Below are positions 17,760 to 63,520 of a stretch of DNA of 64,000 nt, one piece after another. Under the pieces are notes generated by a model, which saw only the letters and a list, made by a program, of their open reading frames with translations, was not told where the DNA came from and ran no database searches. The position numbers and the translations under genes were made by a program. Every line of letters starts with the position of its first letter. Position 1 is the first letter of the stretch. Origin of the DNA: Mya arenaria. Taxonomy: Eukaryota > Mollusca > Bivalvia > Myida > Myidae. Where the stretch lies: the NCBI RefSeq assembly GCF_026914265.1, contig NC_069124.1:12913723-12977722 (forward strand), written 5' to 3'.

Positions 17760-17949
17760 CATTGGTGGACAGTCTCTTGGTTGGTTGAGGATCCATACAC
17801 CTCTCAAGGAAGGATACAAGCTCTGTACAATCAGAAGGTTAAATTCACAAGGATTTGGTTTCAAGTTTATCTTCTAGAATAAGTTACATTACACAGACGC
17901 AATATCAAGAAGTATCAGTGTGGTTTAGTCCTGTTAAGAATCAGTATTG

Positions 17950-19320
17950 CTTCATTCACAGTCTTGTATTGTCAGTACGGCTTTGTTCTAAGTATTGTAG
18001 TGTCAGTATGGCTTTGTTCACAGTCTTGTAGTGTCAGTATGGCTTTGCCCACAGTATTGCAGTGTCACTCTAGCTTTGTTCACAGTCCTGTAGTGTCAGT
18101 AAGGCTTTGTCCACAGTCTTGTAGTGTCAGTATGGCTTTGTTCACAGTCTTGTAGTGTCAGTACGGCTTTGTTCACAGTCTTGTAGTGTCAGTATGGCTT
18201 TGTTCACAGTCTTGTAGTGTCAGTATGGCTTTGTTCACAGTCCTGATGTGTCAGTATGGCTTTGTCCACAGTCTTGTAGTGACAGTATGGCTTTGTTCAC
18301 AGTCTTGTATTGTCAGTATGGATTTGTCCACAGTATTGTCGTGTCAGTATGGCTTTGTTCACAGTCTTGTAGTGTCAGTATGGCTTTGTTCACAGTCTTG
18401 TATTGTCAGTATGGATTTGTCCACAGTATTGTCGTGTCAGTATGGCTTTGTTCACAGTCTTGTAGTGTCAGTATGGCTTTGTCCACAGTCTTGTAGTGTC
18501 AGTATGGCTTTGTTCACAGTCTTGTAGTGTCAGTATGGCTTTGTTCACAGTCTTGTATTGTCAGTATGGCTTTGTTCACAGTCTTGTAGTGTCAGTTCGG
18601 CTTAGTTCACAGTCCACAGTCCTGTAGTGTCAGTATGGCTTTGTTCACAGTCTTGTAGTGTCAGTAAGGCTTTGTCCACAGTCTTGTATTGTCAGTATGG
18701 CTTTGTTCACAGTCTTGTAGAGTCAGTACGGCTTTGTTCACAGTCTTGTAGTGTCATTCCGGCTTTGTTCACAGTCTTGTAGTGTCATTCCGGCTTTGTT
18801 CACAGTCTTGTAGTGTCAGTAAGGCTTTGTTCACAGTCTTGTAGAGTCAGTATGGCTTTGTCCACAGTCCTGTAGTGTCATTCCGGCTTTGTTCACAGTC
18901 TTGTAGAGTCTGTCCACAGTCTTGTAGAGTCAGTATTGCTTTGTCCACAGTCCTGTAGTGTCATTCCGGCTTTGTTCACAGTCTTGTAGAGTCTGTCCAC
19001 AGTCTTGTAGAGTCAATATGGCTTTGTCCATAGTCCTGTAGTGTCATTCCGGCTTTGTTCACAGTTTTGTAGAGTCTGTCCACAGTCTTGTAGAGTCAGT
19101 ATTGCTTTGTCCACAGTCCTGTTGTGTCATTCCGGCTTTGTTCACAGTCTTGTAGTGTCAGTAAGGCTTTGTTCACAGTCTTGTAGTGTCAGTAAGGCTT
19201 TGTTCGGTCTTGTAGTAGTAGTGTGGCTTTATACACAACCAAATAGCATCAGTATGACCTTATTTACTGTCTTGAAGTATCAATATTTATTCATTTATAG
19301 CCTTGAAGTATCAGTATGCC
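17950..19320. repeat. 31-bp minisatellite in a PASK-fragment intron
   Basis: About 44 units of roughly 31 bp, with a core of CACAGTCTTGTAGTGTCAGT then ATGGCTTTGTT. Variants include a TCATTCCGGC type and short deleted units near 18900-19080. Since 31 is not divisible by three and the unit has no stop codon in any of three frames, long spurious open frames appear. It is bounded by unique DNA on both sides, and exon A lies 195 bp to the right. Confidence 0.95.
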
Positions 19321-28505: not shown

Positions 28506-31500
28506 TTAGAAGCACCCATCGCGCCAACTTTCATCAAAGCGAGGTTTTGGTTGACTGTTCCGAACTTGTGGAGAGGGCAAACCAGATATTCTGAAAATGA
28601 TTTAGGAGCTTGCTCAAAACATTATCTACATTCTACCGTAAGATTCAATGGAATTAATTTCAATCAGCCATCAGGCCCCAATTAGTTGGCTACAGGCTTA
28701 TAATCATATTTCATTTAGCCCAATTAGTTGGCTACAGGCTTATAATCATATTTCATTTAGCCCAATTAGTTTTAACTAAAAATTGATTTTACAAAATACT
28801 TTATCATGAGTAATATACAGATAATTTTCCTATATATGTCTTAGAACTGTTCAAAATGAGTATATAAAATTGCTTTTACAAAATACTTAATCTTGTTTAT
28901 CATAAATAAAATTAATAAAAAGAAGTAAGTATATTGGTGCTGTCAGACATTTACCTTGAAAACAAAATGACAAATCATTTAGCAAAACCACATTCACGTT
29001 TGACATACAAACCTTTTAGGAGTTGTTGGTATACTTGACCGGGGTGTTGTAGACCCAGGGCGCGGTATCGACCGCTTAGGAGTGGGGAGCCCGCTCCTCT
29101 GGGGTGAGGGCCCTCTCATAGCTCTCTGCGGCTGTTTGAGCCCGCTCACACTCGGGGACGCTGGCCGGCCAAGTGGGCTCAGAGGCAATCGACTGTTAAC
29201 AAAAGGGTTATATGTAATCTTTTTAATAGAAATAACGGTTAAAATAATACCTTTGATCAATTGATACAATGAGATTACATGCCAGTTTAATAAGATGTAT
29301 GAGAAAATTATATCTATGGTAACCTTCTTTCATATTATTAAAGATGCACTCTTACTCCCAAATAAGATGTACCACAAATTAATACTTTTGTTTTAATTCA
29401 CCAAAAATGTTGAAGAAATATTGAAGAAAATGGTTCTTATGATGGATACCGCATTGAATTTCAAAGAAAGGTGCAGAAAACACAGTATTTCTACGTTTTC
29501 AGACAATAATTAATCACTGTAAATCTTTAAGCACTCACCAATCATTTGTGTGTTTCAGCCATTAAATAAATGGTTAAAATCTTGTGACCAGTACTTACTA
29601 TTTTCCATAAATGCATCATTTAGTAAGCAGTTAAAGGTTAATCACTCAAAATTTATGTTTTTATACATATGTATGTATTGATTTTAAATGAGAATGTCAC
29701 TTAAACTAAAGTTTTGCTGAGTTGCGTGCCAAAGACATTTTCATGGCTTATGTCTAATGTCTTTTTTTTTGCAAAATGTGCATGCTTACTTCTAACAAAA
29801 CTATAAAATGATAACCTAACTCTATTGTATTTTCAGCATTAAATTAAAAGCATAAATTTCAATATTTAAACTTTAATTATCACAAAGTCATAATAGTGAT
29901 GAAAAGACCTTTAAAGTGGACTCTTTCTGGGAAACCATACCTGGCATATTTGGGAGAGTCATCATTGTGAACACCATTTTCACCGTTAGAGTGATCAGTG
30001 AGGCTTGAGTCACTGTTGTGATGCTGAACACGAGGAATAAGCCTTGATACATTCGGAGCACTGCCTCGGAAGTTGGATGCACCTGGAATTTTAAGATAGC
30101 TAATATTTTTCAGATGACAGTGTAGAGAGGCTTTTATTTCCAGTCAACATCATTTTTATACATTTTTCATAAGTTTGAAAAGTTTAAATAAAATAATTGC
30201 TGGACTGTTGAGGTCAGTTTACACTGAGTTTCTGCTGTTTTTGACCCCTACCACCTGTAGCAATATATACACCGCAGTGACCATCTACCCCAATATTAAC
30301 TTAACTAAGTTGTTGGCACATGAACATTGATTGCTGGCCTTAAGGTTAGGCAAAAAGCTGTGGTCAGAACCCACTGAGTTTGTGCTGTCTCTTGAACCTC
30401 ACTGCCTGTAGCAATATATACACCGCAGTGACCATCTACCCCAATATTAACTTAACTAAGTTGTTGGCACATGAACATTGATTGCTGGCCTTAAGGTTAG
30501 GCAAAAAGCTGTGGTCAGAACCCACTGAGTTTGTGCTGTCTCTTGAACCTCACTGCCTGTAGCAATATATACACCGCAGTGACCATCTACCCCAATATTA
30601 ACTTAACTAAGTTGTTGGCACATGAACATTGATTGCTGGCCTTAAGGTTAGGCAAAAAGCTGTGGTCAGAACCCACTGAGTTTGTGCTGTCTCTTGAACC
30701 TCACTGCCTGTAGCAATATATACACCGCAGTGACCATCTACCCCAATATTAACTTAACTAAGTTGTTGGCACATGAACATTGATTGCTGGCCTTAAGGTT
30801 AGGCAAAAAGCTGTGGTCAGAACCCACTGAGTTTGTGCTGTCTCTTGAACCTCACTGCCTGTAGCAATATTTACACCAACTACTCCAATATCAACTTACT
30901 AGAGTTGTTGGCAAGTCAACGTTGGTTGTTGGCATAAAGACGGTCAGGCTGACTGCTGTGGTCTCTGAGCCCGCTGAGTTTGTACTGAACCTATGAACCT
31001 GACCGATTGCAGTAATATAAACACCCTACTACCCCATTGATAACATACCAGCGTTGTTGACATGCAGGTGTTGGTTGCTGGCATATGGACTGTCGGGTGG
31101 ACTGCTGTGGTCAGAGCCCGCTGAGTTTGTGCTGTCTCTCCGACCCTCACCCTCTGAATAACAAATAGTTCTGACTGTGATATTATGCATTAGGTTTTAA
31201 GAAGATATTAATAACTGTATTGTGGAGGTTCTGATATAGACCTTGTTAGAGAAATGACATTCCTTATCACCAGTTATATTGCCATTTCTTATTGTATTTG
31301 GCAATGCAATTTCTTATGACATTTATAATCTTTTTGCCAATTACCGTACATTGCCATTTCTTTTTGCTGATGATATTGATACTTTTTTAGCATTTTTAAA
31401 AATGAAATTTTCTTATTGTCAATGATATTACCATTTTGCATTTTTTTATGACATTTATAATCTTTTTGCCAATTACGGTACATTGCCATTTCTTTTTGCT

Positions 31501-34500
31501 GATGATATTGATACTATTTTAGCATTTTTAAAAATGAAATTTTCTTATTGTCAATGATATTACCATTTTGCATTTTTTTATGTTCACTGTATTGCTATCT
31601 TTTATTGCCAACCACATATGCCTTTCTTTTTGCCAATTGTACTTTTGATTCAACAAAGACAATTCCCTTTTGCCAATATTGCCATTTCATATTGTCATTA
31701 AACTGCTATTTCAAATTGCCAATGATATTCTTGTTGCCATTTCTTATTGAATTGAAGATTTTTTTTTCACTTTGAGAAATATTTCATTTCACATGACTAT
31801 GGCGAAGATGTCAGACAGGGGCATGTTTTATAACATACTCTATTTTACTTAATTAATTTTGATAATTTGCACTGTTAAAGCATTATAAGTCTCAAAAGGT
31901 ATAAAGAAATAAAACATTCAGTAAATCAGGCTTATAAAACATTTCTTCTCTTGATTTATAGCAATTACACAAGACATAATTAATAAGGAATGACATGCAA
32001 AGTATTGTTAATAGGAACAATAAATCATAATGCAAACAATGCAGACATAGTATGTAACAAAAAGTAGAAATAATAAAACATGTTTTCAGACTACATGCTT
32101 TAACTGATTAAAACTGAAAGCAACCGTAACCAATCTGAAATGAAAGATTGCAAATAATTAACAACCGCATGTGTAGAACATTTAAAATGGCTGTGTATTA
32201 TTAAGGTAAAATACCATCTGCACCTTTCGTGAAGAAGCTGTTGAAGGCAAATATCCCTGAGATTGTTTTTTTCTATATATAAATCATAAAACTCATAAAA
32301 ACAGTGTATTTATTAGTTATCACTGTTTGATGCAAAATCTCCATGATCATAATTGTGCCACACTCAGCCCTGATAAAACAAGAGCTGTCACAGAGACAGC
32401 GCGCTCGAATATTACGCTGCTTTTCAGTGTAAGGATTGAAAAGTTTTGGGGAAACATGGATCACTGTAAACTTAGATTAGATTTCAATGCAATACATGAT
32501 GTTTTTGCTGAGATATTAACATGAATGTGGTTACATGCAAAATTTTAACCAGAATTTTTAAGTCCAATAATTAAGGGCCATTATTTGCAAAATACAGTTA
32601 TCTAACTTGGTTATTCAAGTAGGTTGGGTGGTTGAGTACCATTGTATAAAGTCTCAATGCAATACATGAAGTAGTTGCCGAGATATTAACCTATGTGTGC
32701 TAACATGCAAAACCTTACCAGAATTTCTAGTCGCATAGTAAAGCGGCAAAAATGATATAATATAAAAGACAGAGTTATCTTTCCTGATTAATTAAAAAGG
32801 TTGAATGGTTGGGAGCCTGTGTTTAAAGTTTCAATGCAATACATGATGTATTCGAATTTCTATGTCGAATAAAAAACGGCCATAATTTGAATTTAATGCA
32901 AACTAGAGTTATCTTACTTGGTTAATTAAGTAGGTTGGATGGTTGAGTACCATTGAATAAAGTCTCAATGCAATACTTCAAGTAGTTGCTGAGATATTAA
33001 CCTATGTGTGCTTAAATGCAAAACCTTAACCAGAATTTCTAAGTCAAATAATAAAGGCCCATAATTTGCATTATATTCCAAAAAAGTGTTATCTAACTTC
33101 ATTAGTTTAGTAGGTTAGATAGTTGGGAATACATATCTAAAGTTTCAATGCAATACATGATGTATTTACTGAGATAATGACTTAAAGGTGCTTACATGCA
33201 AAACCTTAACCAAGGTGTGACGCCAACGCCGCTGACGATTGGGTGAGTAGTAAAGCTCTCCTTATATTCTTCGAATAGTCGAGCTAAAAATGTGTATTTA
33301 TTTGTTTGAAAGTCATTGATAATAAGCTGTATCCATAAGCTGTATCCATTAATAATAATAATAAATAAAAAGATATCTGAAGATATCAACTATGAGGGTT
33401 TGAAATAGTTTTGTCAGTGATTGGTTAAATACAGTGAGTCTACATGAGATTGCCCATACTCCTTGTAGCAACAGGGATCATTCCCTTTAAAATTTCTTTA
33501 TTTTTCTGAATATATTTTTGATATAATGTATAAATGAAGTGACAATGAATTGTCTGTAGCCATATTTAAATGTAAGCATTCTGGTATCATAGTATTTACT
33601 GGTATGTCGGAGACAGATTGTTGTTCTACAGTGAAAAGGATTTCTTAATTTATAGGACACCTAACTAAGTGATGTAGTAATTCCTGAATTCTGCCAAAAG
33701 TTAAAAAACAACAACATTCAATTACAAACATTTGCTAAATAAATTTGACAAATTAAATTTTATGATACCAGAAAACATTTGAACTGTAACATGCATGCAG
33801 ATTCCCATCCGAACTGGACAACAGAAACCTTACCCTCCAACCTAGCTGGGCTTGAACGATTAGAGTCTGCCGAGGACAGACTATTGGAATCGTTATATTG
33901 AGAGGCACTCGTGTTTGGAAGGGGTCGCGACCTAAACCCTGTGAGGGAGGTGGATATAGAGCCATATACCATGAAATATGTTCAAAGACATATCACCGCT
34001 TGAGAGTGGAAGAATAGAAAATTGTAAAATCTGTTCGGTTGACAAAGAGTAATAAATATAATTGTACACGCAAAACAGGCCTAGCAAAATTGTTTCCCTA
34101 ACAATCTTAAATCCATTATATAATACTAATGTTTGGTATAGCTTATGTAAAATTCTCATTCTGAGACTGTATTTTTATCATTACCTTGATAAACATTTTT
34201 TTTATTAAGTTTAAGAAAGATTTAAGTTTTGACTGCTTTTACCATGATACAGGTAGTCAAATATATTTTTAGACATAATATAGAATCATTTCAAGTTATA
34301 CAATTACAAGAATATAAAACAATAGTTTGAAAACACTATTGCAAAAACCAGTATGATGGTGAACAATCTACATGTACATGTATACACATACAACATACAT
34401 GTACATTTAAGTAAATGTTTATGTATGCTACACTAATGATTAAATTTAAATTAATTTGAAAAATGTGTCTACCATTTATTAATACATATGGTTACAAGGT

Positions 34501-47724: not shown

Positions 47725-57205
<9,481 letters not shown>

Positions 57206-60814: not shown

Positions 60815-63520
60815 TCACATTATCAATGAGTACTTCCAAGTTCCACATACCCCATCAGTTTGATTTTATGGTCCGTCAGACAACATCACACTCAAATCCG
60901 CACATACTTATGATGCAGGTTGGTCATGACCAGAAAATAGCCCCTATTGATTTTGAGATCAGTAGGTAGAAGTCCTGGTAAAAAAGCAGTTTCCGTTCAA
61001 TAACCGTAGATCCTTTGTATCAAGAAACTTCATAATTGGAATGCGTGTTGGTCATGACTAGTAGATGACCCCTATTGATTCTGAGATCAGTAGGTCAAAG
61101 TTCAAGGTGAATCGGGTTAAAAACTATGTTGTGACGACCTTGAGCTGAAAAATGGCTTCCGCTCAATAACTACAGAACGCTTTCACCTATGAAATTCATA
61201 CTAAGTATGCCAATTGGTCAACACTAGAAGATGATCCCTACTGATTTTGAGAAACAAATTTCCAAGGTCACAGGTAAAAAAAACGGCTTCTGCTCAAAAA
61301 CGCTTGCACCCAGGAACTTCATATTTGGTATACCAGTTGGTCTCGACTAGTAGATGTCCCCTAATGATTTTGATGCCAGGAGGTTAAAGGTCAAGGTCCT
61401 CAAGGGGAAAGAAGCTTTCTGCTCAGTAACTAAAGAACGCTTGCACCCAGGAACTTCATACTTGGTATGCAAGTCAGTCATGATTAGTAGATGACCCCTA
61501 CTGATGTTCAGGTCAGTAGGTCAAGGTCACAGTGCTCTTCAGGTGAAAAATAATTTGTTGGTCACCAGTCCTTATGTCACATTTAGTTACCGCTTATTAT
61601 TTGTCAGCTACCACCACACAATGGGAGAAACAAGCTCTTTTCAATAAAGCAATCTCTACTTCTCAACTAAAATGACTAGAACTTAGCTAAACCATTGTCA
61701 ACATTATTTAATTATGTTTCAAACAAAACTAGAGATTGCTTTTTTAAAATATATACTTACTGCTGTAGAGAAGAAAGTGTTGTTGATCAATCTTGGAAAA
61801 TGTAAACAAAGTTTGTATTGTACGAAGTTCCTTGGCGCCAGCGTTATTCAATTATTGATTGGAAACCATTTTTCAGCTCAAGGTCATCGTGACCTTGACC
61901 TTTGACCTACTGATCACAAAATCAATAGGGGTCATCTACATGACCAACTTGCATACCAAGTATGAAGTTCCTGGGTGCAAGCGTTCTTTAGTTACTGAGC
62001 GGTAACCATTTCTTCACCTCAAGGTCATGGTGACCTTGACCTTTGACCTACTGGTCTCAAAATCAATAGGGGCCATCTACTAGTCATGAACAACTAGCAT
62101 ACCAAGTATGAAGTTCCTGGACCCAAAGGATCTTTAGATATTGAGCGGAAACTGTTTCTTCACCTCAAGGTCATGGCGACCTTGACCTTTGACCTACTGC
62201 TCTCAAAGTCAATAGGGGTTATCTACTAGTCATGACCAACTAGCATACCAAGTATGAAGTTCCTGGGTGCAAGCGTTCTTTAGTTACTGAGCGGTAACCA
62301 TTTCTTCACCTCAAGGTCACGGTGACCTTGACCTACTGGTCTCAAAATCAATAGGAGTCATCTACTAGTCATGACCAACTAGCATACCAAGTATAAAGTT
62401 CCTGGGTACAAGCGTTCTTTAGTTATTGAGCAGAAACCATTTTTAAGCTTAAGGTCACCGCCAACATATCGTTTTTTACCTGAAGGTAACCTTGACCTTT
62501 GACCTTTTGATCTCAAAATCAATAGGGGTCATCTACTAGTCATGAACAACTAGCATACCAAGTATGAAGTTCCTGGACCCAAAAGATCTTTAGTTATTGT
62601 GCAGAAACCGTTTCTTCACTTCAAGGTCCAGGCGACCTTGACCTTTGACCTACTGATCTCAAAGTCTATAGGGGTCATCTACTAGTCATGACCAACTAGC
62701 ATACCAAGTATGAAGTTCCTGGGTGCAAGCGTTCTTCTACTAGTCATGACCAAGTAGCATACCAAGTATAAAGTTCCTGGGTACAAGTGTTCTTTAGTTA
62801 TTGAGCAGAAACCATTTTTAAGCTTAAGGTCACTGCCAACATATCGTTTTTTAGCTGATGGTAACCTTGACCTTTGGATCTCAAAATCAATAGGGGTCAT
62901 CTACTAGTCATGAACAACTAGCATACCAAGTATGAAGTTCCTGGACCCAAAGGAACTTTAGTTATTGAGCGGAAACCGTTTCTTCACCTCAAGGTCACAG
63001 CGACCTTGACCTTTGACCTAGTGGTCTCAAAATCAATAGGGGTCATCTACTAGTCATGACCAACTAGCATACCAAGTATAAAGTTCCTGGGTACAAGTGT
63101 TCTTTAGTTATTGAGCAGAAACCATTTTTAAGCTTCAGGTCACTGCCAACATATCGTTTTTTAGCTGATGGTAACCTTGACCTTTGACCTTTTGATCTCA
63201 AAATCAATAGGGGTCATCTACTAGTCATGAACAACTAGCATACCAAGTATGAAGTTCCTGGACCCAAAGGATCTTTAGTTATTTAGCGGAAACCGTTTAT
63301 TCACCTCAAGGTCACGGCGAACTTCACCTTTGACCTAGTGATCTCAAAATCAATAGGGGTCATCTACTAGTCATGACCAACTAGCATACCAAGTATAAAG
63401 TTCCTGGGTACAAGCATTCTTTAGTTATTGAGCGGAAACGAAGTGTGACGTACGGACTGACGGACGGACTGACAGACAGGGCAAAAACAATAAGTCTCCC
63501 CATGAATGGGGGAGACATAA
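60815..63520. repeat. Large inverted repeat array carrying GGTCA half-sites
   Basis: The right part (about 61870-63440) is a tandem array of about 150-170-bp units with TCAATAGGGGTCATCTACTA, AGCATACCAAGTATGAAGTT and CTCAAGGTCA...TGACCTTGACC blocks. The left part (about 60850-61560) holds the same unit in reverse orientation (GTAGATGACCCCTATTGATT), so the whole is a loose palindrome centred near 61700. The right end has CGGACTGACGGACGGACTGA then a CCCCATGAATGGGG hairpin. No coding capacity. Confidence 0.85.

Follow-up and report, generated by a model that had tools for sequence, protein, structure and literature searches.

A tandem array of exon 6-like copies with an exact 151-bp repeat tract in an intron of a Mya arenaria SLAIN-family gene

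Tandem exon duplication affects about 10% of animal genes according to a 2002 study cited in the introduction of PMC9013439. The account of Exonize in PMC12343006, which covers 20 eukaryotes, reports that partial, inter-boundary and intronic events occur in significantly more genes than full-exon events, and counts intronic matches as possible unannotated or degenerate (pseudo) exons. Here we analyze an array of exon copies in a SLAIN-family gene of Mya arenaria, located within a 64,000-nucleotide stretch of contig NC_069124.1 (the window). PMC7129064 describes SLAIN2 as a protein that tracks microtubule plus ends and promotes the growth of microtubules. As in the Exonize class of intronic matches (PMC12343006; also PMC9013439), sequence of a SLAIN exon recurs in the adjacent intron of the same gene and makes no exon. 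The array differs from that class, as described there, in that the copies stand head to tail and that four of them are near-identical through recent expansion. The SLAIN array is thus a degenerate, partial, intronic exon duplication with a minisatellite-like expansion on top of it.

Further systems share part of this architecture. Mutually exclusive exon arrays of the Dscam type, as presented in PMC9013439, also repeat a single exon in tandem within a gene, but the SLAIN copies are out of phase, have closed frames and offer no usable pair of splice sites. Intron gain by tandem duplication of coding sequence, as outlined in PMC2891723, likewise involves local exon duplication with splice-like motifs; in the SLAIN gene, however, no new intron is apparent in coding sequence and the copies lie wholly within an existing one. 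A search of titles and abstract openings in the literature found no description of the SLAIN exon 6 array. Intronic minisatellites or VNTRs resemble the array in their units of about 150 bp, identical neighbours, and sharp edges with a short direct repeat, whereas the starting unit of the SLAIN array overlaps a coding exon and the array is known from one assembly.

The SLAIN gene and the copies of its sixth exon

The translation of eight predicted minus-strand exons (Table 1) comprises 453 residues and matches the SLAIN motif-containing family profile PF15301 (E 1e-17; 65.2 bits against a gathering cut-off of 27). Exons were predicted from splice motifs and phase and carry our own numbering; the gene may continue past predicted exon 8. 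Exon 6 is in phase 1 at both ends, as are exons 3-5, and is in frame with exons 5 and 7. Counting shared end codons it encodes EGEGRRDSTNSAGSDHSSPPDSPYASNQHLHVNNAG, and exons 5, 6 and 7 all specify the same Ser/Asn/Asp/His-rich kind of linker. Its acceptor reads ..TTATTCAG/AGGG and its donor GCTG/GTATGT, the slash marking the splice point.

Table 1. Positions of the SLAIN exons, array units and associated repeats in the window (exons and units are on the minus strand; U, unit)
Feature	Positions	Strand	Remarks
SLAIN exon 1	42054-41741	-	predicted
SLAIN exon 2	36605-36460	-	predicted
SLAIN exon 3	35872-35702	-	predicted
SLAIN exon 4	34941-34744	-	predicted
SLAIN exon 5	33938-33834	-	predicted; working exon upstream of exon 6
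SLAIN exon 6 (U1)	31153-31049	-	predicted; working exon, 105 bp
SLAIN exon 7	30082-29941	-	predicted; next working exon downstream of the array
SLAIN exon 8	29192-29014	-	predicted; end provisional
U2	30887-31033	-	147 bp; donor-like CTA/GTAAGT retained (6.7), acceptor position without AG
U3	30736-30886	-	151 bp; same as U4-U6 except first 16 bp
U4	30585-30735	-	151 bp; acceptor-like TACAG/G (4.2), donor lost (GTTAAG, -4.8)
U5	30434-30584	-	identical to U4
U6	30283-30433	-	identical to U4
U7	30201-30282	-	partial, most decayed; first 29 bp as U4-U6, exon-like part 79% over 38 bp
Amplified tract	30254-30870	-	617 bp, exact period 151, 4.09 units; run of base i = base i+151
132-bp repeat	31305-31582		two units, 97%; intron directly upstream of exon 6; TRF
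180-bp repeat pair	32854-33212		77%; intron upstream of exon 6; TRF
32-bp array	63446-63477		one of 24 TRF loci

Seven anchors on the minus strand (31130, 30983, 30836, 30685, 30534, 30383 and 30232), spaced by 147, 147, 151, 151, 151 and 151 bp, define the array. The live exon is the first unit (U1), at the high-coordinate (5') end, and the six copies U2-U7 occupy the intron between exons 6 and 7. When exon 6 was compared with the whole window by blastn (E ≤ 0.01), only the exon itself and these six copies were returned, with E values of 5e-15 for U2 (30987-30921, 84%), 1e-11 for each of U3-U6, which match exon positions 4-50, and 4e-4 for U7; the locus is a tandem exon duplication on this evidence. 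At the protein level the tblastn match of exon 6 to the copies extends over 31 residues with 61% identity, and a core of 12 codons is retained in U3-U6 save for one residue. Scores of global alignments exceeded those of 300 mononucleotide shuffles by 10.3-13.8 SD for the pairs U1-U2, U1-U4, U2-U4 and U4-U7, and by 4.9 SD for U1-U7. Over the columns aligned to exon 6, identity is 78/105 for U2 and, depending on the alignment, 70/101 or 74/99 for U4 and 50/96 or 66/97 for U7, while U1, U2 and U4 diverge from one another by 22-34% according to the choice of columns.

An earlier sequence-only reading of this DNA had described a seven-unit array of exon fossils in a SLAIN gene, with periods of 147-151 bp, adjoining a working exon at one end. 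The profile match, the anchors, TRF and blastn agree with it on the gene, the unit number, the spacing and the adjacency, and the outer edge of exon 6 falls at the end point given by that reading. The term fossils suits the copies, but only six of the seven units are copies, U1 being live.

None of the other seven SLAIN exons gave a second blastn match in the whole window at E ≤ 0.01. Second tblastn matches to 13 residues of exon 2 (E 0.018) and 14 residues of exon 5 (E 0.032) were taken as chance. Likewise, blastn of U1, U2, U4, U7 and exon 6 against the whole window gave no convincing unit copy outside the array; the best such match (E 0.007) was a 28-bp A+T-rich piece of U7.

The flanks of the units bear on what was copied. 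Homology to the copies starts only a few bases away from the acceptor of exon 6, which itself lies in unique sequence at the edge of the array. The 30-nt upstream flank of exon 6 does not match those of U2, U3 or U4 beyond dinucleotide shuffles (p 0.39, 0.27 and 0.20), and the 107 nt upstream of the exon contain no local match to U2 (p 0.99) or U4 (p 0.32). The upstream flank of U2 does match those of U3 and U4 (p 0.001 each). Downstream of exon 6, the adjoining 44 nt match their counterparts in U2 (p 0.001), U3 (p 0.029) and U4 (p 0.027). The simplest reading would be that the copied unit comprised the exon body, from at or just inside the start of exon 6, and ended about 40 nt past the donor. 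The exon 6 acceptor was probably absent from this unit, a judgement based on 30 nt of diverged intron in which the lack of similarity could partly be decay. With a unit so delimited, the upstream neighbour of each copy would be the intron tail of the previous unit. The proposal that every unit holds a version of the exon stands for the exon body, but the copies are probably not whole exons: U2, U3 and U4 show no detectable homology to the acceptor flank, the donor of U3-U6 scores -4.8, U2 has no acceptor AG, and U7 is partial.

The position of the acceptor is also what an opposite polarity would lead one to expect, with an intronic tandem repeat arising first and its end unit gaining an acceptor to become exon 6. 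We consider this order unlikely, with a small but appreciable chance of being correct. In its favour, the repeat homology begins almost at the acceptor, in unique edge sequence, and the SLAIN profile does not speak for an ancient exon 6: the PF15301 score is 65.2 bits with the exon, 66.5 without it and 73.7 for the protein cut before it, so that the profile, not being raised by exon 6, is silent on its age. Set against this, exon 6 is open in phase over its 105 bp, shares phase 1 at both ends with exons 3-5 and encodes the linker type of exons 5 and 7, and the copies are closed in its phase. Exon 6 is likely the older element and the founder of the array.

Splice sites, phase and open frames of the copies

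Splice sites were scored with tables of consensus frequencies, by which the seven predicted acceptors of the gene reach 2.7-14.3 (3.0 for exon 6 and 2.7 for exon 7) and its seven predicted donors 5.6-9.9. The copies present an acceptor-like CAG in the intron tail that scores 1.9 in U3 and 4.2 in U4-U6, and the donor of U3-U6 is now GTTAAG, at -4.8. U2 is the reverse, with a fair donor (6.7) and an acceptor position without AG. Exon 6 is entered in phase 1, and U3-U6 are missing one base before the core. Entered at the CAG, they read SEVQETAQTQWVLTTAF..., reaching a TAG near the old donor place.

Separately, an acceptor-like GACCACAG/C lies at 31104, inside the exon 6 core, and scores 5.1 compared with 3.0 for the exon's own acceptor; this site recurs in U3-U6 at 30810, 30659, 30508 and 30357 with a score of 4.6.

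To the coding potential of the copies we applied an enumeration of single cassettes of 24-250 nt between 31040 and 30100, which covers inclusion of single copies with exons 6 and 7 at their predicted ends. At realistic thresholds (acceptor at least 2.5, donor at least 5.5) there are 16 such cassettes, every one with a stop, so that 0/16 are in frame and open. Lenient thresholds (acceptor at least -3, donor at least 0) yield four in-frame open cassettes out of 297, all of which are a single 27-nt piece read in a frame other than that of STNSVGSDHS. Among single cassettes, then, there is no alternative exon that keeps the frame free of stops by way of the duplicated peptide. The sequence-only reading had noted a readable STNSVGSDHS frame in the central units and had proposed that a spliced-in copy would add a Ser-rich repeat. 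The frame is real as an open stretch of 37 codons in U3-U6, but it is bounded by a TGA directly upstream and a TAG, and does not match the splice phase. The second proposal fails: the wrong phase, the stops, the lost donor and the absence of any open realistic cassette indicate that, in the present sequence, a Ser-rich repeat would be unreachable by simple inclusion of a copy.

These observations speak against the possibility that the copies serve SLAIN as alternative exons, whether mutually exclusive or additive, which we regard as the most improbable of the alternatives. It could draw on the 12-codon core retained in U3-U6, on the tblastn match and on the symmetry of exon 6, which is such that a clean extra copy would preserve the frame. 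The base missing before the core nevertheless puts the phase wrong, in-frame TGA and TAG codons are present, the donor is lost, and single cassettes of this kind are contradicted by the sequence.

The stops themselves could be the point if the copies were poison or decoy exons, with splice-like sites that compete with exon 6 or 7 and whose inclusion leads to a stop and decay of the message. All 16 realistic cassettes would serve this end, the acceptor-like site of U4-U6 outscores the acceptors of both exons 6 and 7, and the 966 bp between these exons hold eight acceptor-like sites of at least 4, where about 4.6 are expected from the minus-strand density in the window of 4.8 acceptor-like sites per kb. 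However, the eight sites are not independent, being of just two types that recur with the unit; U3-U6 no longer have the donor of the unit, and the decay of U2 and U4 is even. We judge such a role very improbable. A slightly fainter prospect still is that the array provides decoy splice sites as a tunable bank, in which unit number sets the frequency of clean joining between exons 6 and 7. The level of a microtubule regulator would then be controlled by a relic of variable length.

Recent amplification and conservation within the units

The central part of the array is strikingly uniform. Base i equals base i+151 without a break from 30254 to 30719, 466 consecutive positions; U4, U5 and U6 agree at all 151 positions, and U3 differs from them at 8/151 positions, all in its first 16 bp. 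The resulting tract carries the same 13-mer, ATATTGCTACAGG, at both ends as a direct repeat, and TRF reports a 151-bp array at 30222-30877 with 4.4 copies and 98% matches. Head-to-tail units with an exact period over 617 bp make this a minisatellite-like tract, and they bear out the later homogenisation that had been proposed for the four central units. By the rule of three, 0 differences at 466 positions place the divergence of neighbouring units below about 0.65%, compared with 22-34% among U1, U2 and U4. This disparity points to two episodes, in which an old duplication followed by decay would have preceded a much later, recent expansion.

We infer that the array probably originated by partial tandem duplication of exon 6, decayed, and then underwent a minisatellite-like expansion to leave a non-coding intronic relic. 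In this sequence of events, a local tandem duplication would have copied most of exon 6 together with its donor and the first 40 or so nucleotides of the next intron, probably without the acceptor. The copies, placed in the intron downstream of exon 6 with no in-frame read-through, would then have decayed, until one decayed unit flanked by the 13-bp direct repeat was amplified to four near-identical units, presumably by unequal exchange or slippage. The present array would be a minisatellite-like relic removed with the intron.

Only the last of these steps is touched by the possibility that the number of identical units is an artefact of assembly, a reading compatible with the relic origin and one to which we give little credence. 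It draws some support from the presence, within just 617 bp, of three letter-identical units and a fourth that is almost the same, but a tract of this length is short for long reads, and U2, the first 16 bp of U3 and U7 are all distinct, so that the copies stand at any count.

Three points count against the relic origin: the acceptor-like site of U4-U6, stronger than that of exon 6 as given above; the short, diverged 30-nt stretch behind the missing acceptor homology, which could reflect decay; and the pattern of matches within the units. Conserved blocks were assessed by permutation in six unit sets at widths of 20, 30 and 40, with p values uncorrected throughout. Matches are clustered between U1 and U4 (p 0.029, 0.0026 and 0.0008) and in the four-way set (p 0.07, 0.003 and 0.006), clustering between U1 and U2 is weak or borderline (p 0.09, 0.06 and 0.08), and U2 versus U4, both of them lineages that lack a working frame, has no conserved block (p 0.91, 0.90 and 0.99). 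The sets U4-U7 (p 0.0002-0.0016) and U2-U4-U7 (p 0.04-0.09) have their best block at the unit start, because U7 is identical there to U4-U6 through homogenisation. When U1 was compared with the state common to U2 and U4, there were 0 differences at 38 core positions and 13 at the 67 elsewhere (Fisher 0.0036, for a block picked after inspection); 6/13 shared differences fall at third codon positions (p 0.24).

A conserved core as a sign of function in the copies was rejected, since the clustering present in U1-U4 and the four-way set is absent from U2-U4 (p 0.90-0.99). By three-point branch estimates, change in U1 is indistinguishable from change in the stem that U2 and U4 share. The core pattern is accounted for by constraint on the live exon, given an early split between U2 and U4 following the first duplication; it would also fit gene conversion from that exon or the past use of a copy.

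On the preferred origin as a decayed partial duplication, the array illustrates a route by which a partial exon duplication may decay and a unit of it be amplified between short direct repeats into an intronic repeat, and it is a reminder that a peptide may look readable within a repeat and yet be out of reach of splicing. It would otherwise be an ordinary by-product of local tandem duplication.

Other repeats and a second gene in the window

TRF returned 36 rows in the window, which merge by hand into 24 array loci covering 6,873 of the 64,000 bases. Six arrays in the 64 kb, that of SLAIN included, have periods of at least 100 bp, and two of these, the 132-bp and 180-bp repeats of Table 1, are situated upstream of exon 6 at no more than 2.1 kb from it. 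If six 150-bp seeds are placed at random, the probability that at least one overlaps one of the eight SLAIN exons by at least 50 bp is 0.157, counting SLAIN exons only, so that an exon caught up in an array is no great surprise.

At 17941-19237 a 31-bp unit is repeated in tandem about 43 times, with an 83-bp higher-order period at 18828-19159, and a large composite tandem array at 61820-63439 combines TRF periods of 146, 58, 368 and 317 bp, with motifs that we take to resemble those of bivalve genomes. A second gene, on the plus strand at 48000-50204, encodes an FCS-type zinc finger (PF21319, 3e-10) and an MBT repeat (PF02820, 7e-11) and is presumably L3MBTL- or SFMBT-like.
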